From positions 1 through 21,176 of IMG/VR virus record IMGVR_UViG_3300037493_002462: a stretch of 21,176 nucleotides of DNA, one strand, 5' to 3'. The notes under the pieces are model-generated. The model had not been told where the DNA came from and searched no databases. It saw only the letters and a program-made list of their open reading frames with translations. The position numbers and the translations under genes were made by a program. Below, piece by piece: positions 3,492-15,389 of this stretch. Source of the DNA: a virus. Within the stretch, counting starts at the first letter, position 1. The number at the start of each line of letters is the position of its first letter.

Positions 3492-3513
3492 TATTTCTAT
3501 ATAAATTCACCGT

Positions 3514-3651: not shown

Positions 3652-3699
3652 CGTCTGCACCAATACCGTGCGGTGTTTGCACTAGCTTTAAACAATATT

Positions 3700-3966
3700 T
3701 TAATTATTCGTTTCATTAAATTCCTCCAAGTCAGATGCTAGTCGTTCATGAAAAGATTCCTCGCCATCATCACCAGCCAATAGCCAGTCAATTCGGTGAG
3801 TGTATATCTGCGCTGCTTTTAGATACTTTACGCCATACTTAAATAGGTGAATGGTTTCCTCACTATATGGGTGCTCTGCTGTCTCATTGTTATAAACAAC
3901 ATCTTCAATCGCGTTAACAATATCTGCAATTCTAAATTGCCCGTAGTCAAAAGTTCCTCCGCTCAT
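3700..3966 (-). CDS. Conserved phage protein of unknown function, 88 aa
   Basis: A soluble acidic protein that begins MSGGTFDYGQFRIADIVNAI and contains the stretch IDWLLAGDDGEESFHERL near residues 59-76. I recall this as a common small phage family (SGGxFxY at the N-terminus, DGEESFHxRL near the C-terminus) of unknown function. A GGGGG-type ribosome binding site lies about 7 bases before the ATG. It overlaps the frameshifted gene upstream by 20 bases; without that gene's 14-base duplication the two would overlap as ATGA. Confidence 0.8.
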   Translation of the reverse strand: MSGGTFDYGQFRIADIVNAIEDVVYNNETAEHPYSEETIHLFKYGVKYLKAAQIYTHRIDWLLAGDDGEESFHERLASDLEEFNETNN

Positions 3967-4153
3967 ATCTTATCCCCCAGTATGTCTTTAGTTGATAGTC
4001 TTTAGTTGATAGCCTTTGCATTTCATTACTATAGCCAACGGCTCTGCCCATCCTATCTAGTCTGCGCGTTTCAGCCATAAAACTTTTAACCTCTTTGTTC
4101 TTACAGTAGGCTTCCCATTGACCTTGGTGTATTAGTTTTTCCAAACTACTCAT
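3947..4153 (-). CDS. Hypothetical protein, 68 aa, C-terminus apparently frameshifted
   Basis: The product begins MSSLEKLIHQGQWEAYCKNK, is charged and probably helical, and shares the MSSLE start with the 108-residue protein encoded at 4842. A perfect 14-base tandem duplication (3984-3997 and 3998-4011) lies near its 3' end. Because 14 is not a multiple of 3, it shifts the frame: the present end is ..DYQLKTYWGIRYERRNF, while removing one copy gives ..STKDILGDKI and a TGA overlapping the next ATG as ATGA, exactly like the neighbouring junctions. The original protein was probably about 58 residues. Either a recent slippage event or an assembly error is possible. Confidence 0.65.
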   Translation of the reverse strand: MSSLEKLIHQGQWEAYCKNKEVKSFMAETRRLDRMGRAVGYSNEMQRLSTKDYQLKTYWGIRYERRNF

Positions 4154-4156
4154 TTC

Positions 4157-4519
4157 TTATCCCCCAATACCGTGATGTTTTTCAGCATCAGAAACACCTG
4201 CCCAATAACAGGCAGCGCTTGTTGCTTTCTTGTTAGCATTGAACATGTTAGCAGTGAGGCGATCACTCAAAGGCTCACGTTTTTGTGGTGAGGTGTAAAG
4301 TGGGCGAATATTTCGCACGGCTCTAAAATTCTGAGGCTTTCCTTCCGCAAACTCAGAATCCCATTCACCTGAGTGGTGGCTTTGTTGTTCCCATATCCAA
4401 GCCACAGGCTCTTGCTCAGGTTGGGCGAGTAGTTCCTCCACTTCACAGCTTATAGTATTGTTTAACCACCCCGTAGCTAAAATCTTTTTCAATAACTTTC
4501 TTTCTTTACTCATCTTCAT
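4157..4519 (-). CDS. Modular small phage protein with PVAW and PLYTSPQKREPLSD motifs, 120 aa
   Basis: Three modules are visible: an N-terminal helical segment (SKERKLLKKIL .. EVEELLAQPEQ), an EPVAW motif at about 37-41, and PLYTSPQKREPLSD at about 73-86, then a tail ending DAEKHHGIGG. This modular family recurs in tandem in many phages and has no known function. It is a clear paralogue of the gene at 4842-4516: the two share a 38-base direct repeat (4266-4303 and 4619-4656) with two mismatches. The ATG at 4519 overlaps the upstream TGA as ATGA, and a second ATG at 4513 has better spacing from GGAG; either may be used. Confidence 0.75.
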   Translation of the reverse strand: MKMSKERKLLKKILATGWLNNTISCEVEELLAQPEQEPVAWIWEQQSHHSGEWDSEFAEGKPQNFRAVRNIRPLYTSPQKREPLSDRLTANMFNANKKATSAACYWAGVSDAEKHHGIGG

Positions 4520-4842
4520 CTACTCCAATGGGTATCTATAATCCTACAAAGCTCGATACCTGTGTCCAAGTCAACTTCTGTCGGTAGTTGATTAATAATC
4601 ACCCTGATATCTTCATCGCTCAAAGGCTCTCGTTTTTGTGGTGATGTGTAAAGTGGTATGTGATTTGGAACAGAGGAGGGGGCATTGCCTTTTGTAAAAC
4701 TCACTCGCCTGCCAATAATTGGCGTGCCATCACTATATCTTTGCACCCATTCTGTGATCCAAGCCACAGGATCATACAACTGTAAGCTATTAGATGACAG
4801 TTCGGGGTTGGCAAGTAGTTCTTGTATTTCTAAACTACTCAT
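4516..4842 (-). CDS. Modular small phage protein, paralogue of the next gene, 108 aa
   Basis: It begins MSSLEIQELLANPEL, then has DPVAW at about 24-28, a variable loop, and PLYTSPQKREPLSDEDIR at about 63-80, followed by a divergent helical tail. The PVAW..PLYTSPQKREPLSD core is shared with the 120-residue neighbour, showing a tandem duplication with exchange of ends. It overlaps the preceding gene by 8 bases and the following one by ATGA. No catalytic residues are recognisable; role unknown. Confidence 0.75.
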   Translation of the reverse strand: MSSLEIQELLANPELSSNSLQLYDPVAWITEWVQRYSDGTPIIGRRVSFTKGNAPSSVPNHIPLYTSPQKREPLSDEDIRVIINQLPTEVDLDTGIELCRIIDTHWSR

Positions 4843-5080
4843 AACCCACCTCTCTTGCTTTAAGCATTGCGTCTGCTAGTTTATAAGCATTCTGTGCAAT
4901 GTCGTCATAATTAGTGCATTTAGTAGTTAGCATCGCCAAACCTGCAAAGTGGTCACGTAGTTCTAAACTTGGGTGGTCTAGTGCGGCCTGTATGTCCCAA
5001 TATAGATCGTAATGAGTTTCTTCTAATGTGATTAACGCATCTCGAACTCTTTTTAACAGTGTTCTTTCTCTACTTTCCAT
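4835..5080 (-). CDS. Small helical protein related to the modular family N-terminus, 81 aa
   Basis: The N-terminus MESRERTLLKRVRDAL .. DIQAALDHPSLE resembles the first module of the 120-residue protein (SKERKLLKKIL .. EVEELLAQPE), but the PVAW/PLYTSP module is missing and a different helical tail follows (AKLADAMLKAREVGYE-like end). The start is the ATG at 5080, with GAGGTGG about 6 bases upstream and a one-base TGATG overlap with the previous stop. A longer frame to 5098 would need a TTG start and is not favoured. Function unknown. Confidence 0.7.
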   Translation of the reverse strand: MESRERTLLKRVRDALITLEETHYDLYWDIQAALDHPSLELRDHFAGLAMLTTKCTNYDDIAQNAYKLADAMLKAREVGYE

Positions 5081-5721
5081 CACGCCCACCTCGCCCAAAA
5101 TTGGTTTGAATTAATCGCAACGCGCTGCGTGTTGCAGTATTTAGTTACGTGCTTTGAGGCTTGTAACCAGTTTATTAACAGCATTACATGTGGAGTTAAG
5201 CGTATTTCCCCGATGTTCTTTTTACTTGCTCCTGAGATTGCCTCTTGTGCGAGCACCTCTCTATACTGCTGCTGCCACGCTGCTAATTCATAAATATCAA
5301 ATAAGTCCATGCCGTCCATGCGCAACATCTTAACTTTAGGCATGTTGAACCTAATATCTTTCTGTATTGTCCTTAAGTGGGCTGTTGTGATACCCATCTT
5401 CTTGGCCTCATCCTTTAGAGTAGTCGTGTTGGCTGGTTGGTTCGCCACCTTGCGTATTCTAGGTGCGTATACCACCACTGCTTTCTTAGCTGCGATCTCG
5501 TCACGCACTTTTTGGTGGTACGCCTTGGAGTTGGCGTTCATTGTTTCCTTGTTCTTTTGGTAATACGCTGCCCTATCGGCAACCTTTTTTTCTTTGTTTT
5601 TTAGCGCATTAGCTTTTTTACCTTCTGCAACCTTAGCTTTCATTTCTGGGGACATTTCTTTGCGGTAAATCTTACCTCTAACCCTCTGTTTTTCGTTTTT
5701 TTCTTCTATTGTCTGAGCCAT
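5080..5721 (-). CDS. Basic, probably DNA-binding protein of unknown function, 213 aa
   Basis: Residues 1 to about 90 are very Lys/Arg/Ala-rich and helical (KGKIYRKEMSPEMKAK, then AAYYQKNKETMNANSKAYHQK). Around residues 100-125 a helix-turn-helix-like stretch appears (LKDEAKKMGITTAHLRTIQKD), and the C-terminal half has DLFDIYELAAWQQQYRE and a later LTPHVMLLINWLQA helix. A role in binding DNA is therefore likely but unproven. AGGAAA lies before the ATG, and palindrome copy A lies 19 bases upstream of the start. The N-terminal style (YYQKNKE..) is often seen in HNH-type phage proteins, but no HNH core is present. Confidence 0.75.
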   Translation of the reverse strand: MAQTIEEKNEKQRVRGKIYRKEMSPEMKAKVAEGKKANALKNKEKKVADRAAYYQKNKETMNANSKAYHQKVRDEIAAKKAVVVYAPRIRKVANQPANTTTLKDEAKKMGITTAHLRTIQKDIRFNMPKVKMLRMDGMDLFDIYELAAWQQQYREVLAQEAISGASKKNIGEIRLTPHVMLLINWLQASKHVTKYCNTQRVAINSNQFWARWA

Positions 5722-5739
5722 TTTAGTTTCCTTTTTAAA

Positions 5740-5764
5740 ATATGTAGGACGGTGTCCTACATAT
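5740..5764 (-). repeat. Palindrome copy A (GTAGGAC-N3-GTCCTAC), 11-base arms
   Basis: The core 5744-5760 reads GTAGGAC GGT GTCCTAC, and the symmetry extends to 11-base arms (ATATGTAGGAC and its complement). It lies in the 52-base gap between the 71-residue gene and the 213-residue gene, in the leader of the latter. On the minus-strand RNA it would form a very stable hairpin followed by UUUU, so it could also reduce read-through. The 10-mer TATGACTGCT directly follows on the plus strand. Confidence 0.9.
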
Positions 5765-5773
5765 GACTGCTGA

Positions 5774-5989
5774 TTACATTTCCTGGACTATGTATGTATC
5801 GTCATCTACTTTAAACCCTATACCTGTAACTACCTCTCCACAAGCAGCTATCTTAAGCAATGCCATTCTTTCTGGTATGGGCGGGCCAAGGTCAGATATA
5901 TCTTCAAACGGGGTAATATCCCCTTCTTTTGATACAAAATTATCTAGTGAAATCATTTGTTTACGTATTAAGTCTATGCGTACTGTCAT
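5774..5989 (-). CDS. Hypothetical protein, 71 aa
   Basis: A small acidic protein (begins MTVRIDLIRKQMISLDNFVS, ends DDDTYIVQEM) with no membrane segment or recognisable motif. The ATG overlaps the TAA of the metallopeptidase/VWA gene by one base (TAATG), and GGTGGA lies just upstream inside that gene, so translation is coupled. It may be an accessory to the MoxR/VWA pair, judged only from position. Confidence 0.7.
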   Translation of the reverse strand: MTVRIDLIRKQMISLDNFVSKEGDITPFEDISDLGPPIPERMALLKIAACGEVVTGIGFKVDDDTYIVQEM

Positions 5990-7149
5990 TAATCCACCCG
6001 TATCACTACCCCAAATGCAGGTACAGTAGTTTTATTGCCTACCATTACCCATATAACAGGATAAGTAGGAGCTTGCGTGGGGTATTCTATGTACCCATCA
6101 GTATTTAAGATAAGACATTGAGGTTCTAGTTTGTTCTCTAGCACATAGTCAAACACACACAAGCTACTAGACCCACCCCCACCTTTAGGTTTTGTAGAGG
6201 TCATTAACCCACTATAACTATCTTCATGATATTGCTCATGAGAGGCAACTGCTGTATCCCAGTACAGCAGGTCAACCTTTTCAGGGGTGCAATTATCGCA
6301 TATAGCTACGATCTCTGACAATGCTTTTGTTATATCTGCTCCAGATATACTCCCTGATGTATCTACTGCTACACAGATGCTACCAATGCTCTCACTGATC
6401 TGACTAGGTAAATACATATCGTGCTGTAACCAACGTCTATTAGGCTTAGCCCATGTGCTGTCACCCTTACCTACACAGGTCGATGATACGAACTCTCTTA
6501 GCTGCTCAGTCCAGTCAACTTTAGACTGCATGAGGCTATCAAAGCTCCTATCAACATCGCCCCCCTGTTTACCTGCTAGTAGCGCACCTGTTCTAATAGC
6601 AGCATCTATCTCTTTAACTAACTCTTTCTGTTCTTCTGCGTCTAGTGCTTGCGCTCCCTCCCAGTCATGTTCATCTAGCGGTTCACCCTTACCTCCTTTA
6701 CCTTTACCGTCTTTCTTATCCTGCTTCAACCGTGCGAATACCTCGCCGCTATCTAAGCCTCTATAGCACTCGTCTACTAATGCGCCCTCTGGTAACTTAA
6801 TGAAATCCTCGTAAGGGTTAAGGTCTCTGATCTCAAGGTTAATCACATAGTCACATGCTTGGTTGGCTAACTGTGCATCCTCGTCATACAGTTTGCGCCA
6901 TGTAAATAGGTGTTGGTATAGCTTATGCTTTGTCTCATGTAAGACTAGCCCTCGTACCTCTTGGTCAGTAAGACCCTCAACAAATGCCCTACCATAGATA
7001 ACATCACGCCCATTAGTACAGGCTGTAGGGCAATCATCTTTAATCTCTACCTTACCTACCATTAACAGTCCTGAATAAGCTAAGGTAGTCTTGTGTTGCA
7101 TCAAAGCTATATGGGCTTTAGTGATTTTATCTTCTGCTGATAAACTCAT
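5989..7149 (-). CDS. Metallopeptidase-like and VWA domain protein (DUF2201/VWA type), 386 aa
   Basis: The N-terminal half carries a zinc-peptidase HExxH motif (VLHETKHKLYQH, His71-Glu72-x2-His75), in the style of the putative metallopeptidase domain found in front of VWA domains. A charged Gly/Lys linker (about 140-165) follows. The C-terminal von Willebrand A-like domain shows the MIDAS core AVDTSGSIS (Asp263, Ser265, Ser267), a GGGGSS stretch at 323-328 and LNTDGYI with Asp351. Such proteins pair with MoxR AAA+ ATPases (as in RavA-ViaA or CobS-CobT-like pairs), and the MoxR gene lies just upstream here. AAAGGAG precedes the ATG by about 7 bases. The target of this pair in phages is unknown. 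Confidence 0.88.
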   Translation of the reverse strand: MSLSAEDKITKAHIALMQHKTTLAYSGLLMVGKVEIKDDCPTACTNGRDVIYGRAFVEGLTDQEVRGLVLHETKHKLYQHLFTWRKLYDEDAQLANQACDYVINLEIRDLNPYEDFIKLPEGALVDECYRGLDSGEVFARLKQDKKDGKGKGGKGEPLDEHDWEGAQALDAEEQKELVKEIDAAIRTGALLAGKQGGDVDRSFDSLMQSKVDWTEQLREFVSSTCVGKGDSTWAKPNRRWLQHDMYLPSQISESIGSICVAVDTSGSISGADITKALSEIVAICDNCTPEKVDLLYWDTAVASHEQYHEDSYSGLMTSTKPKGGGGSSSLCVFDYVLENKLEPQCLILNTDGYIEYPTQAPTYPVIWVMVGNKTTVPAFGVVIRVD

Positions 7150-7168
7150 GATACTCTCCTTTGGGTTT

Positions 7169-7190
7169 GCGTAGGACGGTTGTCCTACGC
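7169..7190 (-). repeat. Palindrome copy B, 4-base loop
   Basis: GCGTAGGAC GGTT GTCCTACGC: the arms extend to 9 bases, and the loop has one extra T compared with the other copies. It lies 20 bases upstream of the metallopeptidase/VWA start, in the same position relative to a gene start as the other leader copies. On the plus strand it is followed two bases later by TATGACTGCT. Confidence 0.9.
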
Positions 7191-7211
7191 TTATGACTGC
7201 TCTCTATGACT

Positions 7212-7349
7212 TCAAGAACGGAATACTAGGTATCTCTCTACGTGCCTTAGATAATTCCATCTGAGCGCGCGCCTCTCCTTTACTTTTTCTGGGTTAGCGG
7301 CTCTGTATTTAGCCTCATACATTCTTCTTTCTTCTTTTGTCATTGCCAT
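7212..7349 (-). CDS. Small basic protein, 45 aa, probably frameshifted near its end
   Basis: GGAG lies 7 bases before the ATG at 7349, 10 bases after the MoxR stop. The product begins MAMTKEERRMYEAKYRAANP and continues EKVKERRA, a charged helical type common among small phage proteins. A run GCGCGCGC at 7265-7272 follows; after it the present frame reads RWNYLRHVERYLVFRS. Removing one CG pair would instead give ERRAQMELSKARREIPSIPF and a TAG at 7206-7204, which looks more protein-like. A 2-base repeat-length change or a sequencing or assembly slip is likely. Function unknown. Confidence 0.55.
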   Translation of the reverse strand: MAMTKEERRMYEAKYRAANPEKVKERRALRWNYLRHVERYLVFRS

Positions 7350-7359
7350 CACACAACTC

Positions 7360-8433
7360 CTAGAATAAGTAGCCTTGAGATACTGCATATGCAGTGAACA
7401 TCTTGTTAGTCACCGCTATGCTACGCTTAGGACTTTTGTTTGACATCACACCCATAGCGAACAAGGCTTGGGCTTCACGTGGCATCCTAGCTAAGTACGT
7501 CATCCATGCATCGAATGTTTCAGTTGCTACATTACTTAGTGCTTTACTAACTACAAGGCACACAGCCGCTCCATTTGGGGGTATAACAGTAGTAGTGGGT
7601 TTGTTTACGATCTCTGACCACGCAGGCATTTGATTATCCAGCTTAAGAATATTCATCATATCCATAGTAGCCCTCTCACCTATTACACCAAACAGGGCAT
7701 GTGTAAGTACGTCCTCTGGTAGTTCACGGCATCTCTTGAGTATATCGGATGCTTTTTCTAATGACCTAAAGGTAACAAATGCAGTTCTAGGTACACGGGG
7801 GTCATTGATATACTCATTCATATCAGGGCGTTCGTAATCTTCAAAACTGGCTGTCATGGCTGGGTACTCTATGACTGTTGCTATTACTACAGGGTCAACC
7901 CCTGCGTTCTGTGCATAGTTCCAACGCCATTCATCACCTGTATGCTTACGCATCTTGACTACACATACTCTGTTTCTAGCATGTGGTGGTACGTTGTCCC
8001 CAATACCCTCTACCGCTAAGTTAGTTGTAGCGAATACAATCGAGCCTTCTGGCAGTGTGTGAATACCTAGTTTACGCTCTAACATTAAACGCAAACAGGC
8101 GTTCATGACTGCTTTACTTGCTTTACCAATCTCATCCAGCATAAGGATAAGCGGTTTGTTTAAGTGAAAACCAAACTCCTCATTAGGTATAAAGGAACAT
8201 ACTGGTGTACCGTCAAGGGTACGTATCTGAGGAACTAAGAAGTCGCCTACATCTTTAGTCGTGATATCTATGTAGCAGGGTATATGGTTGGGGTAAATCT
8301 CTACTAGAGACTTGAGTATGCTGCTCTTACCAATGCCCATCTCCCCTTGTACTAGAACTGTTAGAGAGTCACCTACTTTACTGATTAGGTTGATGGTTTC
8401 TTGCATTGATATACTGCTGTATGGTTTCTTCAT
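7360..8433 (-). CDS. MoxR-type AAA+ ATPase, 357 aa
   Basis: The N-terminal AAA+ core shows Walker A GEMGIGKSS (30-38), Walker B LILMLDE (95-101, Asp100-Glu101), sensor 1 VFATTN at about 133-138 and an arginine-rich HARNR at 151-155. The C-terminal part is helical, as in MoxR/CbbQ/CobS-like ATPases, which act as chaperone-like remodelling machines together with VWA proteins. The partner VWA gene lies two genes downstream. The ATG at 8433 has AGGAAA about 7 bases upstream, and the gene is driven by the promoter at 8521-8549 through a leader containing palindrome copy C. The cellular target is not known. Confidence 0.92.
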   Translation of the reverse strand: MKKPYSSISMQETINLISKVGDSLTVLVQGEMGIGKSSILKSLVEIYPNHIPCYIDITTKDVGDFLVPQIRTLDGTPVCSFIPNEEFGFHLNKPLILMLDEIGKASKAVMNACLRLMLERKLGIHTLPEGSIVFATTNLAVEGIGDNVPPHARNRVCVVKMRKHTGDEWRWNYAQNAGVDPVVIATVIEYPAMTASFEDYERPDMNEYINDPRVPRTAFVTFRSLEKASDILKRCRELPEDVLTHALFGVIGERATMDMMNILKLDNQMPAWSEIVNKPTTTVIPPNGAAVCLVVSKALSNVATETFDAWMTYLARMPREAQALFAMGVMSNKSPKRSIAVTNKMFTAYAVSQGYLF

Positions 8434-8450
8434 GTCAATTTCCTAGTTGT

Positions 8451-8467
8451 GTAGGACATCGTCCTAC
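8451..8467 (-). repeat. Palindrome copy C in the MoxR leader
   Basis: A perfect GTAGGAC ATC GTCCTAC lying 18 bases before the MoxR ATG and about 55 bases downstream of the promoter's -10. The flank CGGGTT(G/A)GGT is also found beside copy F, so the repeated unit may be longer than 17 bases. As RNA it would fold into a short hairpin just upstream of the ribosome binding site. Confidence 0.92.
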
Positions 8468-8520
8468 GGGTTGGGTTCAATCCTTTAAGTGGATGAGACT
8501 TTATCTAAACTACAGTACAT

Positions 8521-8549
8521 ATTATACAGGGTTGTAGGGCGGTTGTCAA
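8521..8549 (-). promoter_or_regulatory. Sigma-70-type promoter for the MoxR-to-left-edge operon
   Basis: Minus strand: -35 TTGACA at 8549-8544, a 17-base spacer, -10 TATAAT at 8526-8521 with an extended TG. The 23 bases at 8507-8529 (the -10 and start region) are identical to 10139-10161 at the next promoter. The spacer holds the degenerate fragment GTAGGGCGGTTGTC (8534-8547), which matches 13 of the first 14 bases of palindrome copy B. A weak inverted repeat lies downstream at about 8480-8495. Confidence 0.9.
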
Positions 8550-8551
8550 TA

Positions 8552-8779
8552 CTACTCCTCCCCATTTGCATCTACAAGTTGGTTACACGGGGGTATATCG
8601 TAGCATTTCCACTCATCGAAGTGAGTGTTCATTATTTTATCCAGCTCAGTCTCCTCTTTAGCAAACTGCTTGTTGTATACCTCATGGCGTTCAGCATCAC
8701 TTACCTTAGCTGCTGACACTGAGCCGCATATTAACCCTAACGCTATAACTACTACAAAAAAACTTACTAATGCTCTCAT
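8552..8779 (-). CDS. Small secreted or periplasmic protein, 75 aa
   Basis: A classical signal peptide is visible: MRALVSFFVVVIALGLICGS followed by VSA-AKV, with predicted cleavage after residue 23. The mature part of about 52 residues is acidic, with two cysteines (KCYDIPPC) that could pair in the periplasm. It has no lipobox. AAGGAG lies 7 bases before the ATG. The stop is immediately upstream of the next operon's -35 box. It could act in the cell envelope, for example in superinfection exclusion, but that is speculation. Confidence 0.75.
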   Translation of the reverse strand: MRALVSFFVVVIALGLICGSVSAAKVSDAERHEVYNKQFAKEETELDKIMNTHFDEWKCYDIPPCNQLVDANGEE

Positions 8780-8790
8780 AACTGCTCTCC

Positions 8791-9645
8791 TTAAAAATTA
8801 AATTTGTCTAACATTGCATCTACAGTATGTTTAACCGTACCTCTAATATAATCTGAGTCCTTAATATCCTTAACATCAAGCCCCATCATTGTATCTTCGA
8901 GCTTAATACGCATAGCCTCCAACCGTGTGTCACCTGATACATTAAAATAAGTCAGCATATTGCATAGTTCTTGAGCGCTCTCTACTACTGAGCTGTAGAT
9001 TTTACCCTGTTTGCCGTTCTCATCAGTACGTAGACCAAATGATAGCTGTGTTAATACCTTGTGTAACCTGTCCCACGCATCTTGGGTTACTTTGTCTAAG
9101 TTAGACTTGTATAACTTATCGTACTGGTCTTTTAGGTCATTCATAGCCTCGTTGGTTACATCTACCCTAAAGTCACCTGACTCAGGCACTGGGGTATATC
9201 GCACTGACATACCGAACTTATGTTGCACCTGATCTACGTCAGGGTACTCATCCCTATTAAACAATGCGCCTAGTTGGAATGCCGCCGCACTAATTTTTAC
9301 CCCGTACTCAGGTAAGAACTGATTGACCAGATACCAGTACTCATTCTCTAGGCGTGACATTTCTTGGCGGTAGGTGATGAACATACCTGTACTTAGTAAT
9401 CGTTGCCCTGCATCATTCCAAGGGCTTGTTACCGACATATGGTAAGTTCTGATAAGCCCAGCTAACTTCTGTATAGCTGACAGCGATTCGTCCCCTGCTA
9501 ACAGCCCCTTATAAGCACTGATAACTTTAGTTTTAGTTCCATTGTCTACGTCCACCTGTGAGGCTATAGATTTTGCTTGTTTTCTAGCCGTCCACACAGA
9601 AATATTCAACTCAACTAACATCGCACTACTAGATAATGTTTTCAT
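8791..9645 (-). CDS. Conserved phage protein of unknown function, 284 aa (DUF3150-like?)
   Basis: The N-terminus contains LVELNISVWTARKQAK at about residues 10-25, followed by helical segments and GDFRVDVTNEAM near the middle. From memory this LNIS-WTARK type is widespread in phages, often near MoxR and VWA genes, and may correspond to DUF3150; I cannot confirm that. It is soluble and mostly helical. The ATG at 9645 has AGGAAG about 7 bases upstream; the longer frame from 9675 needs a TTG start and is rejected. It is coupled to the 37-codon gene upstream. It may work with the MoxR/VWA pair although a promoter separates them. Confidence 0.75.
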   Translation of the reverse strand: MKTLSSSAMLVELNISVWTARKQAKSIASQVDVDNGTKTKVISAYKGLLAGDESLSAIQKLAGLIRTYHMSVTSPWNDAGQRLLSTGMFITYRQEMSRLENEYWYLVNQFLPEYGVKISAAAFQLGALFNRDEYPDVDQVQHKFGMSVRYTPVPESGDFRVDVTNEAMNDLKDQYDKLYKSNLDKVTQDAWDRLHKVLTQLSFGLRTDENGKQGKIYSSVVESAQELCNMLTYFNVSGDTRLEAMRIKLEDTMMGLDVKDIKDSDYIRGTVKHTVDAMLDKFNF

Positions 9646-9646
9646 T

Positions 9647-9760
9647 TTAATCTTCCTTTTTATTTGTAAAGTCAAACTCTTTTTGTTCTTTTGGGGTTAA
9701 ATCCTCCCATGTAAGGGTAGGTCTATACTGCCCGTTTGTTTTTATTGTTATGTCACTCAT
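9647..9760 (-). CDS. Small conserved phage protein, 37 aa
   Basis: GGGAG lies 6 bases before the ATG at 9760-9758, and the TAA at 9649-9647 ends one base before the next gene's ATG. The product starts MSDITIKTNGQYRPTLTWED and contains LTPKEQKEFDF; this pattern (a short beta hairpin, then TW-x-(D/E)LTPxEQKEF) looks like a small phage family I have seen without a known function. It is acidic and soluble. Confidence 0.75.
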   Translation of the reverse strand: MSDITIKTNGQYRPTLTWEDLTPKEQKEFDFTNKKED

Positions 9761-9763
9761 CTC

Positions 9764-10069
9764 TTACTCCCAAATACCAAATGCACCGAGGATAGTGTGT
9801 TCACCACCCCATTCTTTGTCATTCAAGTACCACTTACCTTTCTTCTGCACTATGCTTACTCTGTTAAGCCCGTTTAATCTTTCTTTCGTTGTGTTCGTAA
9901 ACCACCCGCAGTTAGTGATGGTGTACGCTAATGAGGTCTTCTGCGCTATGCAGTTTCCGTGTAGCCACAGTTTTACTACTTCTCCCTCTACAGTAACCTT
10001 AGTGTTACCTAATTTAAACTTTTCTCTGCGCAAAAACGCATGTGCCGCTTCTTTTGTTATTTTCCTCAT
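9764..10069 (-). CDS. Conserved small protein of unknown function, 101 aa (DUF8033-like)
   Basis: A beta-rich protein: AFLRREKFKLGNTKVTVEG, VVKLWLHGNCIA, then TTKERLNGL and a final GKWYLNDKEW segment. This order (FKxGNTxV, LxLHGNxIA, TTKERLNGLxxVxIxQKxGxWYLN) is a family I recognise in phages and bacteria, possibly the one named DUF8033; function unknown. GGAG lies 7 bases before the ATG, directly beside the edge of palindrome copy D, so a hairpin there could affect ribosome access. First gene of its operon. Confidence 0.8.
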   Translation of the reverse strand: MRKITKEAAHAFLRREKFKLGNTKVTVEGEVVKLWLHGNCIAQKTSLAYTITNCGWFTNTTKERLNGLNRVSIVQKKGKWYLNDKEWGGEHTILGAFGIWE

Positions 10070-10080
10070 GTCAGTCTCCT

Positions 10081-10097
10081 GTAGGACATCGTCCTAC
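10081..10097 (-). repeat. Palindrome copy D, abutting a ribosome binding site
   Basis: A perfect GTAGGAC ATC GTCCTAC located 12 bases upstream of the ATG at 10069. On the minus strand the stem ends directly before the AGGAG Shine-Dalgarno. It shares core and loop with copy C, and the whole promoter-leader unit is related to that of copy C. Confidence 0.92.
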
Positions 10098-10111
10098 GTT
10101 ATGTTATGCAA

Positions 10112-10123
10112 CCCCTTAAGGGG
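10112..10123. repeat. Palindrome CCCCTTAAGGGG in the same leader
   Basis: A 12-base perfect palindrome between the promoter and palindrome copy D. A related but imperfect repeat lies at the same place in the copy C leader (about 8480-8495), and a different perfect one in the copy E leader (12316-12332). It could be an operator or a second leader hairpin. Confidence 0.7.
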
Positions 10124-10152
10124 GTGAGGCGTTACTTCAAACTACAGTACAT

Positions 10153-10181
10153 ATTATACAGTAGTTGTCGTTAGTTGTCAA
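10153..10181 (-). promoter_or_regulatory. Consensus sigma-70 promoter for the 10069-8552 operon
   Basis: Minus strand: -35 TTGACA at 10181-10176, a 17-base spacer, extended -10 TGTATAAT (TATAAT at 10158-10153). The -35 and spacer contain two copies of GACAACTA offset by exactly 10 bases. The -35 overlaps the stop codon of the 62-residue gene upstream, so the promoter is compressed against that gene. Confidence 0.93.
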
Positions 10182-10366
10182 GTGGTAGAGTACACGTTGT
10201 GATCTTTATAGTTAAGGATAAGGCTCAGTAGTGCTTCATCCGAGTACAGGTTATAGTGAAACGTTGCATATTCTAACGCCCTTCTTTTATCCAAATGTCT
10301 TGTTATGTTGCTCGTGTGTCTCTCTACCATTATTTGAATGGCTTTTTCCCGTTCTTCGGGTGTCAT
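10178..10366 (-). CDS. Small hypothetical protein, 62 aa, paralogue of the gene at 12538
   Basis: A helical charged protein: MTPEEREKAIQIMVERH, then a middle ALEYATFHYNLYSDEALLSLI stretch. The gene at 12538-12350 has the same plan (MTQEERDKVIEMLV .. FYNSYTDEDLLEELL), and both sit directly in front of a promoter of the same type, so gene and promoter were probably duplicated together. ATGA overlap with the upstream gene. The TGA lies within the -35 of the next promoter. Function unknown. Confidence 0.72.
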   Translation of the reverse strand: MTPEEREKAIQIMVERHTSNITRHLDKRRALEYATFHYNLYSDEALLSLILNYKDHNVYSTT

Positions 10367-10650
10367 GGTTTTAGGGTGTATTCCAACCCACCTCTTTTAT
10401 GCGTTGGTTGGGGTTGGGTATATGACTGCTGCTCACATGCAGCGTTAGCTCCTGATTTATACACTAGCCACCTGCTTACACCTACTGTGCATACTAAAGC
10501 TAATACTAAAATACAAGTAAGTCCCTGTAATTTAGCTACGTGGGTGTCACGGTCTACTATTGCTTGTGCGTATGATTGCATAATGCGATTAATGGCATCA
10601 CTGCGTTCTTTAGTCTCGCCTGTACTTCTTATCTCTGATTGTGCGCTCAT
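10363..10650 (-). CDS. Small membrane-anchored protein, 95 aa
   Basis: The N-terminal 40 residues are hydrophilic and helical, possibly coiled coil (DAINRIMQSYAQAIVDRD), followed by one membrane span at about 44-63 (LTCILVLALVCTVGVSRW) and a tail rich in Gln/Pro. The start is the ATG at 10650, with AGGA 7 bases upstream; the longer frame to 10677 lacks a ribosome binding site. The layout (coil, one span, short tail) resembles small phage membrane proteins such as spanin or holin accessories, but no lysis gene is nearby, so no role is assigned. Confidence 0.65.
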   Translation of the reverse strand: MSAQSEIRSTGETKERSDAINRIMQSYAQAIVDRDTHVAKLQGLTCILVLALVCTVGVSRWLVYKSGANAACEQQSYTQPQPTHKRGGLEYTLKP

Positions 10651-10843
10651 TGTTTTATCCTGTGTTAGGTTATACATGTCTAACCTGTTGTTAAAATTGA
10701 GGTCTTAAGGCAAGCAGCGGTAAAACGGTAAATACATATAGGTTGCCACTCCCTTAAGCTTAACGGTTATTGACACAGCCCACTCGTTAATTTACGGCTG
10801 TCTAGGGAAAGGATTGCTCCGCGCCTAGCTCGCTTTTTGTTTT
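10651..10843. other. Gene-free gap of about 190 bases with a possible hairpin
   Basis: No convincing gene. On the minus strand the upstream gene ends with GGAGAATTAA, which looks like a ribosome binding site with no gene after it, suggesting a gene has been lost here. An imperfect inverted repeat (GACACAGCC .. GGCTGTC, about 10769-10802) is present. A weak TATAAC at 10674-10669 could serve the 95-residue gene, but no good -35 is visible. Confidence 0.35.
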
Positions 10844-11089
10844 TTAAATTAATTCTCCTAGTTCATTAGGTCTAAGAAACTCCCAGTCGTTACCGCCTAT
10901 ACAAGCGCATTGTTTCTCTAGTATAAATATCTCGTAACCTACGTCATTTAGTATGTACATTGTAGAGTCCTCAGTAGATTGCCCTCCATTACCGTCCCAC
11001 CTTGCATTTATATACAGTTTGTTGGGTGTGATATAGAGCTTACACCCTACAGGCACTATCTTAGCTCTTGCAAATACTACACCCTTCAT
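10844..11089 (-). CDS. Hypothetical protein, 81 aa
   Basis: A soluble protein with beta-like segments (MKGVVFARAKIVPVGCKLYI, GYEIFILEKQCACIGG) and three cysteines (one near residue 16, two in CAC). The ATG overlaps the TGA of the 200-residue gene as ATGA. Its C-terminus NELGELI matches the NEEGELI end of that gene, because both gene ends encode a ribosome-binding-site-like GGAGAATTA or GGGGAATTG. No domain recognised. Confidence 0.7.
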   Translation of the reverse strand: MKGVVFARAKIVPVGCKLYITPNKLYINARWDGNGGQSTEDSTMYILNDVGYEIFILEKQCACIGGNDWEFLRPNELGELI

Positions 11090-11688
11090 ATCAATTCCCC
11101 TTCCTCATTAAAGTCTTGGTGTTCTACTTGTTCTAGGAATGCTTTTTTAGATGTGCTGTAGGTATACGCTTCCTCCAGTGTGCGGTACAGTTGCCGCATA
11201 TAGGCACGGCATTGTTCTTCTATACCTTTTTCTGCATCTACAATGAGTTTCTCATAGTACCTGTTGGTAGCATCATCCCACCCTGCACCTGTTACCTCAA
11301 AGTCCCATGTCCCTAAGTGTACGGTGTTCTCGTGGTTGTAGGACATCGCCCTACGGGTTAGGTATATATCAAAGTAACGACACGCAGGCTCTTTACCATC
11401 AAAAGGTATGACTGCTATGTACAGCTCTGGGTGAGCCTCACGTATTAATACGTGTGCATCGAGGAAATCTTTGAGGTTTATATTCCCAGTAAACCACGCG
11501 CCGTCACCTTGTGAGTGAAAGCCTGAGTAACTAAATACAGGTTCATAGATGCCCTTAGTCTCTATCATGTCACGGCAATCTTCCAATATACCCTCTACCT
11601 GAAAGTCAAACCCTCCTTTCCCGCTATACTCCTGAAAGTTTTTATAAGCGCACTCCTTTGCGCTGTCTGTTAAGTCTTTATAGTTCAT
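11086..11688 (-). CDS. Conserved phage protein of unknown function, about 200 aa, with palindrome copy F inside
   Basis: The N-terminus MNYKDLTDSAKECAYKNF followed by FSYSGFHSQGDGAWFTG (about residues 52-68) matches a family I recall from phages (LSDKA..KA...., then SGFxSQGDGAxFxG), sometimes loosely annotated as antitoxin-like; the function is not established. GGAG lies 6 bases before the ATG at 11688, and another ATG is at 11691. Palindrome copy F lies in the frame and encodes RRAMSY, between YFDIYLT and NHENTVHLG, without breaking it. The tail is rich in Glu and Tyr. The gene overlaps its upstream neighbour by about 11 bases. Confidence 0.75.
   Translation of the reverse strand: MNYKDLTDSAKECAYKNFQEYSGKGGFDFQVEGILEDCRDMIETKGIYEPVFSYSGFHSQGDGAWFTGNINLKDFLDAHVLIREAHPELYIAVIPFDGKEPACRYFDIYLTRRAMSYNHENTVHLGTWDFEVTGAGWDDATNRYYEKLIVDAEKGIEEQCRAYMRQLYRTLEEAYTYSTSKKAFLEQVEHQDFNEEGELI
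11338..11354 (-). repeat. Palindrome copy F inside a coding region
   Basis: GTAGGAC ATC GCCCTAC, one mismatch from perfect symmetry. It is read in the frame CGT AGG GCG ATG TCC TAC (RRAMSY). TATGACTGCT follows about 50 bases further on the plus strand (11407-11416). The flank CGGGTTAGGT resembles that of copy C. Confidence 0.85.
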
Positions 11689-12256
11689 CATCTTCTCCTA
11701 ATACCTCTACTACAAAGAAAGCGCACACGTCCCAGTATTCCTGCTCCTCCTCCGTTTCGGGTACGTCAAGACTTGGGCAAAAGATAGCGTCCATGTCCTC
11801 TACGCTATTAAACCTCTCATTGATTGCATCTCTAAAGTTGTTATAGTCCTCACTGTTCCTAAACAGCTTCTCATCAAGGTGATCGGTGTTCTGCCACTCT
11901 AGGCACATGCCTAGTAGTTCTTTATAAGTTGTTAAGCCTGTGACGCTTATCTGGAAGGTGGGGAGGTGGTGGCCTTTAAAATACTCTATACAGCATGTAT
12001 CAACGTGTGATACTTTAAAAGTTCTTGTCTCTGTAGGGCATTGTCCTACGTTTTCTTCTATATCAATGCAGTCTCCTGCAATGGCGTACTCCGCCTCCGA
12101 CACGTCATCCCAAACGTTTAATACTCCGTAGGCATTACCCTCGAAGTACCCAAAGACATCTAAGCCTTGAAATACTGTGTCTGAATGGGCATCCATAATA
12201 GAAGCATCTATTAGTGCTGTTAAGCTTGTGTACCTAATTGGTGTGAATGATGTCAT
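11678..12256 (-). CDS. Hypothetical acidic protein, 192 aa, with palindrome copy G inside
   Basis: First gene of its operon. A soluble, strongly acidic protein (ending GEDDEL) with several Cys and aromatic residues and no recognised motif. Palindrome copy G is read as VGQCPT in ..IEENVGQCPTETRTFK... The start has AGGA 9 bases upstream. The 29 bases running from the start codon into the leader (12254-12282) are identical to those before the 241-residue gene (15359-15387), followed by palindrome copy E. Function unknown. Confidence 0.75.
   Translation of the reverse strand: MTSFTPIRYTSLTALIDASIMDAHSDTVFQGLDVFGYFEGNAYGVLNVWDDVSEAEYAIAGDCIDIEENVGQCPTETRTFKVSHVDTCCIEYFKGHHLPTFQISVTGLTTYKELLGMCLEWQNTDHLDEKLFRNSEDYNNFRDAINERFNSVEDMDAIFCPSLDVPETEEEQEYWDVCAFFVVEVLGEDDEL
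12033..12049 (-). repeat. Palindrome copy G inside a coding region
   Basis: GTAGGGC ATT GTCCTAC, one mismatch from perfect symmetry. On the minus strand it is read GTA GGA CAA TGC CCT ACA (VGQCPT), the same frame as copy H (VGQRPT), and both are followed by x-T-R. Confidence 0.85.
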
Positions 12257-12285
12257 TGTCTTAATTCCTATATAAGTAAGTGTGT

Positions 12286-12302
12286 GTAGGACGGTGTCCT
12301 AC
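12286..12302 (-). repeat. Palindrome copy E in the leader of the 192-residue gene
   Basis: A perfect GTAGGAC GGT GTCCTAC, 29 bases before the ATG at 12256. The leader between it and the ATG is a copy of that at 15359-15387, so this is a duplicated promoter-palindrome-leader cassette. Confidence 0.92.
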
Positions 12303-12315
12303 GTGGTTTGTTCTC

Positions 12316-12332
12316 GTTAGGGAGTCCCTAAC
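12316..12332. repeat. Inverted repeat between promoter and palindrome copy E
   Basis: GTTAGGGA-G-TCCCTAAC, perfect 8-base arms around one base, lying 10 bases past the -10 and so overlapping the predicted transcription start. Position and symmetry suit an operator, or a 5' hairpin on the transcript. Confidence 0.75.
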
Positions 12333-12341
12333 TTGAGATAT

Positions 12342-12370
12342 ATTATACGCTAGTTGTCAGTAGTTGTCAA
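12342..12370 (-). promoter_or_regulatory. Consensus sigma-70 promoter for the 12256-10178 operon
   Basis: Minus strand: -35 TTGACA at 12370-12365, a 17-base spacer, -10 TATAAT at 12347-12342. GACAACTA occurs twice with a 10-base offset, as at 10153-10181. The promoter lies inside the 3' end of the small gene at 12538, whose last codons (LTTTDN) encode it. Confidence 0.93.
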
Positions 12371-12538
12371 GCTTGAGATAGCTCTGTTGTATGGGTTTAG
12401 TAGTTCTTCTAATAAGTCCTCATCTGTATAGCTATTATAAAAATTTACCCAAAATGCTTTAGTTGCTGTTGTAGGTGTGCTGTGCTCCCAATTAGATACC
12501 AGCATCTCTATTACCTTATCTCGCTCTTCTTGTGTCAT
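12350..12538 (-). CDS. Small hypothetical protein, 62 aa, paralogue of the gene at 10366
   Basis: The chosen start is the ATG at 12538, which has AGGGG at the right distance; the ATG at 12544 abuts that site. The protein is helical: MTQEERDKVIEMLVSNW, then FYNSYTDEDLLEELLNPYN. It resembles the 62-residue protein at 10366 in length and motif order. Its 3' end contains the next promoter. It follows the 460-residue gene by 9 bases. Function unknown. Confidence 0.7.
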   Translation of the reverse strand: MTQEERDKVIEMLVSNWEHSTPTTATKAFWVNFYNSYTDEDLLEELLNPYNRAISSLTTTDN

Positions 12539-12547
12539 TACCATCCC

Positions 12548-13930
12548 CTAGTAAAATTTACTCCCGCCCACTCGTGTCACCATAAGTGTTTTGTTCTTTA
12601 GCATACGCTTAGTGCCGCGTAGTGCCTTTATATTATCCTCATAGACTCTCATTGCATCTGCCTCACTCCACTCATAACTTACTCTACCTGCTACATTTAC
12701 TGCCCATCTCGGATTCATCGGGTCATGGGCTATATACGTTTTCTTTATGTTACGTTTGGGTGAGTATGTGTTAGTCGATAGCTTGGGTTTGGGTTTTGTG
12801 TCGCTTGGTGCTTTTATTATAGATGCCGTACTAAACTCAGCAGGTTTGATGTTGTCCCATTTGAGGTTATACCAGTCCCCATCACGCGGCTTAGTTTGCA
12901 TAGGTTTGTTGGTTTTGTGGTTGTATTGGCGTAGTCCATGAGGAGCAGTCATGATGTGGTCAGGGTTCTTTTTTATATTATCCAGTCCGTTGGAATAGTC
13001 CCAGTCGCCACCTGCTCCCATGTACAGTGTCGCAAGCCATATAACAGGGTATGATTTCCCCCATAGCGTTATCTTGAGGTTGGGGTTTGAATTAGTAGCA
13101 GCAATACTCTTTATATAATATGTCACCCGTTCAGTGGCTTCTAGTGGTGCTGGCTTGCCTCGCTCCTTCCTTGTACGTACCAAGTATTGCCGCTTATGCA
13201 CGTGTTCCATTGATGTATCTGTCTTTTTATACATGCCCTTTACATCAATCCATGTCGTTTGCTTGTTCTTTATGCCTGCTAAGGTATCTACGTATTCTCG
13301 CTCTGTTATTATCTTATACCCTGCATGTGATGGCATATAAGAGCGTGATTTTAAGGGTAGTGTGTACTCGTGCTGCTTGCGTAGCTTTTTAGGTGGTGTT
13401 TTTGGTTTAGAGAGGTTTACCTGTTTGCCCGCCTTATTACCTTCTTGCCACTCAAACGTACCTAGCTCTGCATCATAATATAAGGTGTCATGTAGCATTT
13501 CTTGAGTTAATACCCTCGTTTGCGTAGGACGTTGTCCTACCTCTTTTAACGCATCGCGCACTAACTTGTTTACGTATACCTTTTTAATAGTCAGTGTGGT
13601 CGCTGTCGGGCTTATGTACGTATACCACACCATATCTGTTAGCTCATCTATGATTGCATTCTTCTTATCTTGATATTGGACTTGTCTTGCAATGGTTTGC
13701 AGCTGAGCTTTTTGGGTTTTTATGTAGGCAGGGGACTGATGTTTCCTTACTTTTCTTCTGTAGCATTGATACTCATTCGCATATAGCCTGTTTAGCCTTA
13801 GTGCTTCTTTGTAGTGCCTTTTATAGACCGCAGGGTGCATGTACTCTGGGCTGGAGGGTGTTTTCTTATCTAACATATTCATACCTATTTGGGTGTCTTT
13901 TGGGACTTCTGTGTGAGTGGAAAATCTCAT
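12548..13930 (-). CDS. Large basic protein with HNH-nuclease-like features, 460 aa
   Basis: A Lys/Arg/Tyr-rich, probably DNA-binding protein. Residues about 141-163 (LTQEMLHDTLYYDAELGTFE followed by WQEG) match the usual opening of phage HNH endonucleases (LTxExLxxxLxYDPxTGxFxW), and KSYPVIWLATLYMGAGGDWD at about 294-313 resembles the HRLAW..YG segment before the HNH core. The expected DHxNG..DNR core is altered (YSNGLDNIKKNPDHI), so it may be inactive or a different fold. Palindrome copy H is read as VGQRPT just before the LTQEML segment. The ATG at 13930 has almost no leader and no Shine-Dalgarno; the ATG at 13876 has AGG 7 bases upstream and may be the true start. Confidence 0.65.
   Translation of the reverse strand: MRFSTHTEVPKDTQIGMNMLDKKTPSSPEYMHPAVYKRHYKEALRLNRLYANEYQCYRRKVRKHQSPAYIKTQKAQLQTIARQVQYQDKKNAIIDELTDMVWYTYISPTATTLTIKKVYVNKLVRDALKEVGQRPTQTRVLTQEMLHDTLYYDAELGTFEWQEGNKAGKQVNLSKPKTPPKKLRKQHEYTLPLKSRSYMPSHAGYKIITEREYVDTLAGIKNKQTTWIDVKGMYKKTDTSMEHVHKRQYLVRTRKERGKPAPLEATERVTYYIKSIAATNSNPNLKITLWGKSYPVIWLATLYMGAGGDWDYSNGLDNIKKNPDHIMTAPHGLRQYNHKTNKPMQTKPRDGDWYNLKWDNIKPAEFSTASIIKAPSDTKPKPKLSTNTYSPKRNIKKTYIAHDPMNPRWAVNVAGRVSYEWSEADAMRVYEDNIKALRGTKRMLKNKTLMVTRVGGSKFY
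13524..13540 (-). repeat. Palindrome copy H inside a coding region
   Basis: A perfect GTAGGAC GTT GTCCTAC, read on the minus strand as GTA GGA CAA CGT CCT ACG (VGQRPT) in the 460-residue gene, at the border between an upstream helical region and the LTQEML module. The frame stays open across it. Confidence 0.9.
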
Positions 13931-13946
13931 TGCGTTTTGAGGGCAT

Positions 13947-13976
13947 ATTATAGTCTTTTTGGGGCTAAATAGGCAA
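13947..13976 (-). promoter_or_regulatory. Probable promoter for the 460-residue gene
   Basis: Minus strand: -10 TATAAT at 13952-13947, 18 bases from TTGCCT at 13976-13971. A perfect TTGACA lies further out (13985-13980), too far (27 bases) to serve this -10. The predicted start would fall about 10 bases before the ATG at 13930. It differs from the repeated promoter family: no GACAACTA repeats and no palindrome in the leader. Confidence 0.65.
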
Positions 13977-14193
13977 ATCTGTCAACAATTACGGGTTGAA
14001 AAATATACCTCCGAAGACTTTGGAGCAAGGGGAGGTCACTAAAGACGCAGTGTGGGGTTGATAGGTAGGTAATTAATTGCAGTTTAAAATATTTGGGGGA
14101 AATGAGCGAAGAAAGAAAGACAAAAAACTAAAAAAGACAAAAGCCGCTAATAAAAGACGTTATTTTCGACTAAAAATGGAAATCTTTTTCCTT

Positions 14194-14227
14194 TATATAT
14201 ATATATTTATAATAATAATAATAATAA
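14194..14227. repeat. AT-rich microsatellite (TA and ATA repeats)
   Basis: A run of alternating TA followed by tandem ATA units with no G or C, the most AT-rich point in the gene-free region. It would melt easily, as in DNA unwinding elements, and could be length-variable by slippage. Confidence 0.8.
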
Positions 14228-14350
14228 GACCTATTTTTTTAATCCCTTGCCATCCGTGCCCTCCAGATGCTCCAAAGTCTATTCAGGTGCAACTTGATGC
14301 CGTAAATTGTTGACAGATACAGGATATCTAACACCAACTCCGCCCTGCAT

Positions 14351-14383
14351 CCATGCTCACCGTCACAAAGGGAGCAGTCATAA
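14351..14383. repeat. 33-base direct repeat, copy 1
   Basis: It begins CCATGCTCACCGTCACAAA and ends GGAGCAGTCATAA, and matches 14511-14543 at 32 of 33 positions, with an offset of exactly 160 bases. It contains AGCAGTCATA, the complement of the 10-mer TATGACTGCT found elsewhere in the window. Confidence 0.95.
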
Positions 14384-14412
14384 GCGAATTTATTATGTTA
14401 GGGTGATTTTAA

Positions 14413-14497
14413 CTAGCATGCCCTTTAAGCCACGATAATCTCAAACCGTGCCCAATGTATTACTTCGCCTTAAATCGCCTTATAAAGGGCATGCTAG
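14413..14497. repeat. Inverted repeat with 15-base arms
   Basis: The left arm 14413-14427 (CTAGCATGCCCTTTA) and right arm 14483-14497 are perfect complements, separated by 55 bases. The interior has a short direct repeat TCGCCTTA (about 14465-14482). The whole structure lies between the two copies of the 33-base direct repeat, giving a symmetric composite element. Confidence 0.93.
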
Positions 14498-14510
14498 TGA
14501 GCTAGAAAAG

Positions 14511-14543
14511 CCATGCTCACCGTCACAAACGGAGCAGTCATAA
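14511..14543. repeat. 33-base direct repeat, copy 2
   Basis: The same sequence as 14351-14383 except C instead of G at 14530. It lies 30 bases from the terminator of the Pro/Ala-rich protein gene. Confidence 0.95.
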
Positions 14544-14572
14544 CACAAGGGTTATGATAAGGAATTTTAGGC

Positions 14573-14600
14573 AAAAAAAAGCCTCCAATTAAGGAGGCTT
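14573..14600 (-). terminator. Rho-independent terminator
   Basis: On the minus strand: stem AAGCCTCC / GGAGGCTT with a 6-base loop, followed by a T tract (14580-14573). It stops transcription of the Pro/Ala-rich gene 36 bases past that gene's stop. Transcripts from the promoter at 15445-15473 should therefore be monocistronic. Confidence 0.92.
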
Positions 14601-14612
14601 AATGATTTTAGT

Positions 14613-14640
14613 GTAGGACGTTGTCCTACATTGTCCTACA
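14613..14640 (-). repeat. Palindrome copy I plus a tandem half copy at a gene end
   Basis: GTAGGAC GTT GTCCTAC at 14613-14629 is perfect; the 10 bases TTGTCCTACA at 14621-14630 are repeated in tandem at 14631-14640. On the minus strand the TAG stop of the Pro/Ala-rich protein (14638-14636) is supplied by the extra half copy, so the element now defines the end of the protein. It sits between that gene and its terminator. Confidence 0.9.
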
Positions 14641-15361: not shown

Positions 15362-15389
15362 TGTCTTAATTCCTATATAAGTAAGTGAT

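Follow-up and report, generated by a model that had tools for sequence, protein, structure and literature searches.

The stretch analysed here (the window) is the whole 21,176-bp virus record IMGVR_UViG_3300037493_002462, a tailed, water-borne phage in whose early genes a palindrome, GTAGGAC-N3/4-GTCCTAC, recurs. The early arm (776-15361) runs leftward on the minus strand and encodes PolA, a vWA/DUF2201 protein and a MoxR-type ATPase, and the gene for the terminase large subunit (TerL; PHROG 38) lies on the plus strand at 16481. Ten copies of the palindrome were found in the early arm, between 5744 and 15406, compared with 0.6 expected at up to three mismatches from dinucleotide shuffles. Nine of these have a 3-nucleotide (nt) centre and at most one mismatch, and the tenth, at 7171-7188, has a 4-nt centre. 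Considering where these sites are placed, how they are exchanged between related phages and which protein appears to change with them, we propose that they are probably DNA operators of a phage-encoded, stoperator-like network, read by the product of the first early gene. Four copies belong to leaders, here called C, D, E and F, and three (11338, 12033 and 13524) lie inside genes, so the palindrome is not purely a leader element. The features are as follows.

Leader C, 8434-8549
8521-8549, minus strand (read 8549-8521): promoter, TTGACA-17-TATAAT, 12/12
8507-8529, minus strand: 23-base block around the -10 box, identical to 10139-10161
8480-8494, minus strand: second inverted repeat, AUCC-ACUUAAA-GGAU, imperfect (ATCCACTTAAAGGAT), of RNA-hairpin type
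8451-8467: palindrome (candidate operator), GTAGGACATCGTCCTAC, before the MoxR-type ATPase gene
7360-8433, minus strand: MoxR-type AAA ATPase (PF07728; PHROG 1297), behind leader C

Leader D, 10070-10181
10153-10181, minus strand (read 10181-10153): promoter, TTGACA-17-TATAAT, 12/12
10139-10161, minus strand: 23-base block around the -10 box, identical to 8507-8529
10111-10125, minus strand: second inverted repeat, ACCCC-CUUAA-GGGGU (CCCCTTAAGGGG at 10112-10123), of RNA-hairpin type
10081-10097: palindrome (candidate operator), GTAGGACATCGTCCTAC

Leader E, 12257-12370
12342-12370, minus strand: promoter, 12/12
12316-12332, minus strand: inverted repeat, GTTAGGG-N3-CCCTAAC, near the predicted 5' end of the transcript
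12286-12302: palindrome (candidate operator)

Leader F, 15362-15473
15445-15473, minus strand (read 15473-15445): promoter, 11/12
15390-15406: palindrome (candidate operator), 28 nt upstream of the first early gene
14636-15361, minus strand: first early gene, 241 amino acids (aa), candidate operator-binding protein, no Pfam or PHROG family

Palindromes outside these leaders
14613-14629: at the end of the first early gene
13524-13540: inside the 460-aa gene; the corresponding linker of the relative L193 carries that phage's own palindrome
12033-12049, one mismatch: inside the 192-aa gene; absent from the relative L090
11338-11354, one mismatch: inside the 201-aa gene; the L090 copy is perfect
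7171-7188, 4-nt centre: before the vWA gene
5744-5760: before the 213-aa gene

The first-pass annotation had described C and D as a duplicated regulatory unit and had placed E in the same scheme, a description that is accurate as far as it goes. Positions 8507-8529 and 10139-10161 agree base for base (AAACTACAGTACATATTATACAG), with the identity stopping exactly there at both ends; composition alone would give 6.6e-6 such pairs in the window. In both leaders the block covers the -10 box of a perfect sigma-70 promoter. The order promoter, inverted repeat, GTAGGAC palindrome, Shine-Dalgarno (SD) sequence and ATG is true of C, D and E, the second repeat being CCCCTTAAGGGG in D and imperfect in C, and E having a different one (GTTAGGGAGTCCCTAAC, 12316-12332). 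The units were nevertheless under-counted, as F is a fourth, with the common promoter block and without the second repeat. The 23-base block belongs to a promoter module common to C, D and F (the D3 family), and a 35-nt block on the SD side is common to E and F (12248-12282 and 15353-15387, 94%). L090 (loci of relatives are given L numbers throughout) is a 65-kb IMG/VR contig closely related to the window (vWA protein, 95%), with seven exact GTAGGAC palindromes, all in 7915-15026. Leaders C and D are almost unchanged there but the copy of the E palindrome is preceded by an F-type promoter, which suggests that the leaders are built from movable modules. An Rfam search gave no match at gathering scores.

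Palindromes of related phages

Relatives have palindromes of their own. Among loci fetched with the vWA gene, an own palindrome family was present in 32 of 36 (L090-L125) and in 55 of 77 further ones (L190-L266), counted by hand, with some loci representing the same contigs and a few clustered repeats of another kind (GCACCA and GTACTA types) included in the counts. The words comprise TTTCGTACNGTACGAAA, TTTCATACNGTATGAAA, TTTCCCACNGTGGGAAA, CTTCATATNATATGAAG, GGGTACNNGTACCC, TCTAGACNNGTCTAGA, TGTATACATATGTATACA and ATACTGTCNGACAGTAT, and further families begin TTTCATAC.. and TTTCCCAC... AT-rich words occur 6-16 times per record in all 12 records searched whole and are confined to one arm in those with positions reported. 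The VWA-DUF3150-MoxR set is also found in Synechococcus phage MinM2, where GGTTCAGNCTGAACC was counted over 50 kb 14 times exactly and 14 times with one mismatch, many of these copies lying right after a stop codon and shortly ahead of the next start. The nearest TerL relatives in the phage collection (023Pt_psg01, Pelagibacter phage HTVC027P and DSL-LC04; tblastn, 51-53% identity) showed no repeated palindrome family in the first 50 kb of each. No description of these palindromes was found in the portions of the literature that were accessible, which does not prove their absence from print, and the words palindrome, inverted repeat and promoter do not occur in the main text of the paper on the HTVC023P group.

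Between close relatives the word is replaced in place. In their longest aligned stretches L091 and L092 share 95-97% identity, and at four of the six L091 sites TTTCCCACNGTGGGAAA (TTTCCCAC..GTGGGAAA) occupies the place orthologous to TTTCATA(C/T)NGTATGAAA (TTTCATA(C/T)..GTATGAAA) in L092, with both halves altered symmetrically and the flanks conserved. The fifth L091 site is of the TTCATAT type and matches a TTCATAC site of L092; for the sixth no counterpart was found. In L193, whose vWA protein is at 79% to that of the window, the promoter and second repeat are shared by the orthologous leaders C and D, but GGGTACAAGTACCC (a GGGTAC palindrome) stands in place of GTAGGAC. The replacement extends to a site inside a gene: the linker that holds a palindrome in the window's 460-aa gene also holds one, with L193's own word, in the L193 homologue; L192 and L195 have none there. 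For the in-gene sites at 11338 and 12033, the L192, L193 and L195 homologues that were examined show nothing equivalent.

The position of the sites relative to promoters is narrowly defined. For 476 sites in 73 loci, the distance from the end of the -10 box to the site centre was 40-60 nt for 59 promoters scoring 11/12 or better, 60-80 nt for eight, 20-40 nt for one and 0-20 nt for none, in lists that retain doubly fetched sites (about ten of the 68 rows by eye), so that the counts are inflated but the position is not. On the opposite strand no promoter of 11/12 or better lay within 200 nt of these sites. When the threshold was lowered to 10/12, the 40-60 nt bin held 66 promoters, compared with about three per bin at random positions. 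The corresponding distances in the window are 61 nt (C), 63 nt (D), 47 nt (E) and 46 nt (F). A site at about +35 to +55 would be better suited to obstructing elongation than to competing for binding at the promoter.

DNA site or RNA hairpin

The first-pass annotation treated both the second repeat and the palindrome as presumed hairpins of the mRNA leader, and the two elements have to be separated here, as the idea is supported for the former and not for the latter. The second repeat forms a 5-bp stem with a CUYAA-type loop (CUUAA, CUCAA and CAUAA were seen). Eleven distinct leader hairpins from seven close loci (window, L090, L190, L192, L193, L195 and L252) are paired in 98.2% of 55 stem cells, compared with 27-58% when the partner was slid, and four of the five stem pairs show compensatory changes on both sides; the sequences were picked for their hairpin look, which inflates the percentage paired and not the double changes. 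When the leaders are folded as single sequences, the centroid contains the D hairpin but the minimum-free-energy structure does not, the C hairpin forms only in part, and E's own inverted repeat folds clearly. To judge from the way it evolves, the CCCCTTAAGGGG repeat is an RNA-type hairpin between promoter and palindrome in C and D, and it appears to be independent of the palindrome because it is kept when the palindrome is exchanged. In the leaders of L192, L195 and L252 the CUYAA hairpin is followed downstream by an extra long inverted repeat (GCTAAGTTA...TAACTTAGC).

That the palindromes, too, act as mRNA hairpins, in translation control, processing or 5' stability, is suggested by their position in 5' leaders near the SD sequence and by structure prediction, in which leaders C, D, E and F all fold with a 7-bp palindrome stem. 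The constraints on the sites point elsewhere. Among 206 deduplicated sites in seven word groups, 125 lie between predicted genes (58 of these at most 30 nt from a start) and 81 lie within genes, 86% of the span being coding by crude gene calls. Fifty-two of the 66 deviating pairs are the outermost pair, and among inner deviations G.U (5) is not favoured over A.C (3). Of the 121 deduplicated sites in the CGTA, CATA and CCCA groups, 119 have C.N.G at the centre, a figure obtained by searching with the outer arms only and measured in the relatives' words, not in GTAGGAC itself; the two bases beside the centre could not pair in an RNA hairpin loop. The CTTCATA group has 11 T.N.A and five C.N.G centres. 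Taken with the exchange of the palindrome alongside a predicted helix-turn-helix (HTH; see below), and with the RNA-type evolution of the neighbouring CUYAA hairpin in the same leaders, these properties indicate that the GTAGGAC palindrome behaves as a double-stranded DNA recognition site and not as an RNA hairpin.

Two observations weigh the other way. The centre base, which alone in the palindrome is asymmetric relative to transcription, is C 90 times and G 40 times on the sense strand, which is unexpected for a fully symmetric site. Complementary flanks are also above chance, both between genes (19 vs 7.9) and within them (11 vs 4.5), and could mean extended hairpins. Overall, we consider it unlikely that the palindromes act in the mRNA. 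The hairpin promoters of N4-type virion RNA polymerase, which have a 7-bp stem and a 3-nt loop, were considered on account of the vWA and ATPase genes and set aside in view of the sigma-70 promoters upstream and the symmetric in-gene sites.

The first early gene as candidate reader

The relatives include a group whose early operon opens, right behind the first palindrome, with a gene of a single protein family, represented by 42 open reading frames in a first set and 88 in 88 loci (45 distinct rows) in a wider one. An exact cognate palindrome stands near the gene start in 40 of the 45 distinct rows (counted by hand). The family has no Pfam or PHROG match and no HTH_3 match; its likeness to the L5 repressor was compared by family libraries only, where its members had no relevant match in Pfam or PHROGs. 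A sequence search of the PDB gave nothing better than E 0.15, which does not exclude a known fold. Searching the phage collection (50,697 records) by tblastn with the first gene of L114 or of the window gave no match, and a search of genome contigs for the first gene gave a single locus, on a 9-kb contig of a metagenome-assembled genome (MAG). In the AlphaFold2 model, an HTH is found at residues 62-95 (helices 62-73 and 78-95) with a predicted local distance difference test score (pLDDT) of about 93, preceded by a long N-terminal helix and accompanied by a small helical C-terminal domain (mean pLDDT 80; predicted template modelling score 0.51).

When the family is aligned, the residues of one segment follow the palindrome word. 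Across 25 distinct rows, identity of the HTH segment tracks a shared palindrome with the N- and C-terminal parts controlled (partial r 0.40, 0 of 2000 permutations), and the C-terminal domain does not (477 of 2000 permutations). The pair L091 and L092 illustrates this, as their first genes have C-terminal domains that are 93% identical and HTH segments that are 54% identical, and their words differ accordingly. In a subclass with a one-residue insertion the correspondence comes down to a single position, residue 84, which falls in the second helix of the modelled HTH: it is Thr in 13 of 13 CGTAC phages and Val in seven of seven CATAC phages. An additional MAG contig found afterwards (L316) fits, with Thr and seven TTTCGTAC sites. 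The residue separates the two words in 21 of 21 phages of the subclass. The record IMGVR_UViG_3300022752_000073 (L308, L309) has two copies of the first gene, behind TTTCATATGATATGAAA and TTTCCCACCGTGGGAAA, together with both site families, and is possibly a switch caught half-way.

The window's own first early gene, 14636-15361, occupies the matching position, 28 nt behind palindrome F; L090 (73% over the alignment) and L193 (31%) are its only matches. Its segment RSRRQATTNSIIACFALDKKGSRTAAYLKEALKGKTALEAISPLEWAV is identical in L090, which has the same palindrome, though the C-terminal part differs, and the segment is changed in L193, which has another palindrome. By these comparisons 14636-15361 likely encodes the reader of the window's palindromes.

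A putative operator network and its alternatives

The mechanism best supported by these results, we infer, is that the product of the first early gene exerts negative feedback and blocks elongation. That gene (in the window, the candidate 14636-15361) would yield a dimeric DNA-binding protein which, being made first, would bind its own leader and so regulate its own synthesis. It would then bind the sites about 40-60 nt downstream of the early -10 boxes, before operon genes and inside some of them, where the bound protein would block or slow the elongating RNA polymerase and thus limit early transcription. Relatives use unrelated words at corresponding places, and in one group of them the word covaries with the predicted HTH of the first gene.

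Several points weigh against this proposal, besides the centre bias, the flanks and the doubly fetched sites already described. The independent events are few, with ten palindrome changes on the tree of 29 vWA proteins, and the independent Thr/Val pairs number between two (well-supported, starred branches) and four (best tree); the two pairs tested are concordant, which is far below significance. CATAC phages that lack the one-residue insertion have Asn at the Thr/Val site, and CATAT and CATAC phages can share nearly the same helix. No fold match was found in the PDB, with no Foldseek match at E 0.001 and a best VIA-align Z of 4.7. The protein of 14636-15361 is not detectably homologous to the HTH family (hhalign probability 0.3%), its AlphaFold2 model is unusable (pLDDT 42), and the case for it as reader is drawn from its position and central segment, with L090 and L193 the sole sequences for comparison. 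The sign of the effect, repression rather than activation, is presumed.

With the window's first gene not demonstrably homologous to the HTH family and much of each genome unannotated, the sites might instead be bound by a regulator from the host, or by some phage protein that is not the first-gene product. Near-identical phages with different words would be hard to accommodate with one host factor, two word families accompany the two first-gene copies of a single record, and the first-gene HTH tracks the word; we give this alternative little credence. An N-like antitermination system, with the first early gene encoding an N-like protein, the palindrome acting as a nut or boxB-like element and a host boxA, would account for a fast-evolving first early gene and for sites shortly after promoters, and a boxA-like YGYTCWTTAACAA is found in 11 deduplicated places of the relatives, several of them just after a palindrome. 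The sites, though, number about ten per genome, occur also in genes and are DNA-symmetric, the protein has a predicted HTH, and the window has no such boxA-like sequence, all of which makes antitermination as the role of the palindromes highly improbable. That the palindromes are a selfish or neutral repeat spreading in the early arm, as in-gene copies and the two window copies in stretches missing from L090 might suggest, is scarcely credible and was rejected in view of the tight promoter spacing, the palindrome at the same linker in L193 and the symmetric in-place swaps by which orthologous places keep a site.

Boxes of the form TGCTCTTTAACAA and its variants, which we take to resemble the rrn-type boxA, are a feature of the relatives' early arms in their own right (L091 1688, L092 1848, L106 5049, L117 6048, L256 5044, L242 289 and others). 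These boxes, several of which closely follow a palindrome, suggest that the host Nus antitermination machinery is used; there are none in the window.

Returning to the proposed operator network, the closest known kind, by analogy and from the available portions of two reports, is the stoperators of Cluster A mycobacteriophages (L5, Bxb1, Trixie). There, many short repressor sites are spread genome-wide, mostly in short intergenic spaces and not at promoters, a site before the repressor gene is proposed to serve autoregulation, and consensus and repressor change together between phages (PMC6550527, PMC9283540). Those sites are 13 bp long and asymmetric, follow the direction of transcription and are bound by a monomer that has two DNA-binding domains. 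The present system resembles this in having many dispersed copies of a short site in the early arm (10 in the window; 6-16 per record) and, in the relatives, a lineage-specific word that tracks a cognate first-gene family. It differs in its sites, which are symmetric palindromes of 16-17 bp as opposed to asymmetric ones of 13 bp, probably in lifestyle, as Cluster A phages form lysogens whereas no integration evidence turned up in this analysis, and, as far as tested, in a protein family that is undescribed in Pfam and PHROGs. The lambda CI/Cro operators are 17-bp, two-fold symmetric sites for HTH dimers with lineage-specific words, and are few and overlap early promoters. The two-fold symmetric 17-bp word is shared with them; unlike them, the present sites are many, lie downstream of promoters and in genes, do not overlap promoters (one promoter of 11/12 or better in the 0-40 nt bins) and go with a protein that has no HTH_3 match. 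The start-associated sequences (SAS) and their extended form (ESAS) of Cluster K mycobacteriophages are, in the portion of the report available, repeats just upstream of many start codons, about half with imperfect 17-bp inverted repeats (PMC3203893); the SAS is an asymmetric 13-mer tied to translation starts. They are similar in standing upstream of the start codons of many genes, but the SAS is a 13-bp GGGATAGGAGCCC at the ribosome binding site, whereas the present word is different, symmetric, placed upstream of the SD sequence, found also inside genes and variable between relatives.

On balance, we lean towards a broader interpretation, in which a large group of aquatic phages, uncultured and without sign of integration, has independently evolved a stoperator-type network run by an undescribed HTH family. 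As the recognition helix of the reader changes, operators throughout the genome would be swapped at their places, a single Thr/Val step answering to one base pair, providing a natural catalogue of matched HTH-operator specificities, with the RNA hairpin between promoter and operator a separate, conserved element of the window's lineage. If so, dispersed operator networks would be a common form of early-gene control in aquatic phages and not a peculiarity of temperate mycobacteriophages, the many matched helix-operator pairs from close genomes would make the stepwise evolution of DNA-binding specificity directly accessible to study, and an undescribed family of DNA-binding proteins would gain its first function.

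Some further observations concern the genomes themselves. MinM2, Planktothrix phage Pag-Yong1 and Planktothricoides phage Pra-JY27 (OQ594354, OL906435 and PP438419) are all 65,014 bp long with equal TerL match scores and may therefore be one phage, whose host is perhaps a companion bacterium of cyanobacterial cultures. The vWA/DUF2201 protein at 5989-7149 has a PHROG and relatives labelled HNH endonuclease, a label that may be wrong because Pfam gives DUF2201 (putative metallopeptidase plus VWA-like domain). A 42-nt direct repeat, 93% identical, lies within two small open reading frames (4262-4303 and 4615-4656) whose proteins have a TSPQKREPLSD segment in common. A second direct repeat, of 33 nt and 97% identical (14351-14383 and 14511-14543), is found between the first early gene and the 460-aa gene, close to a terminator-like hairpin at 14579-14600.

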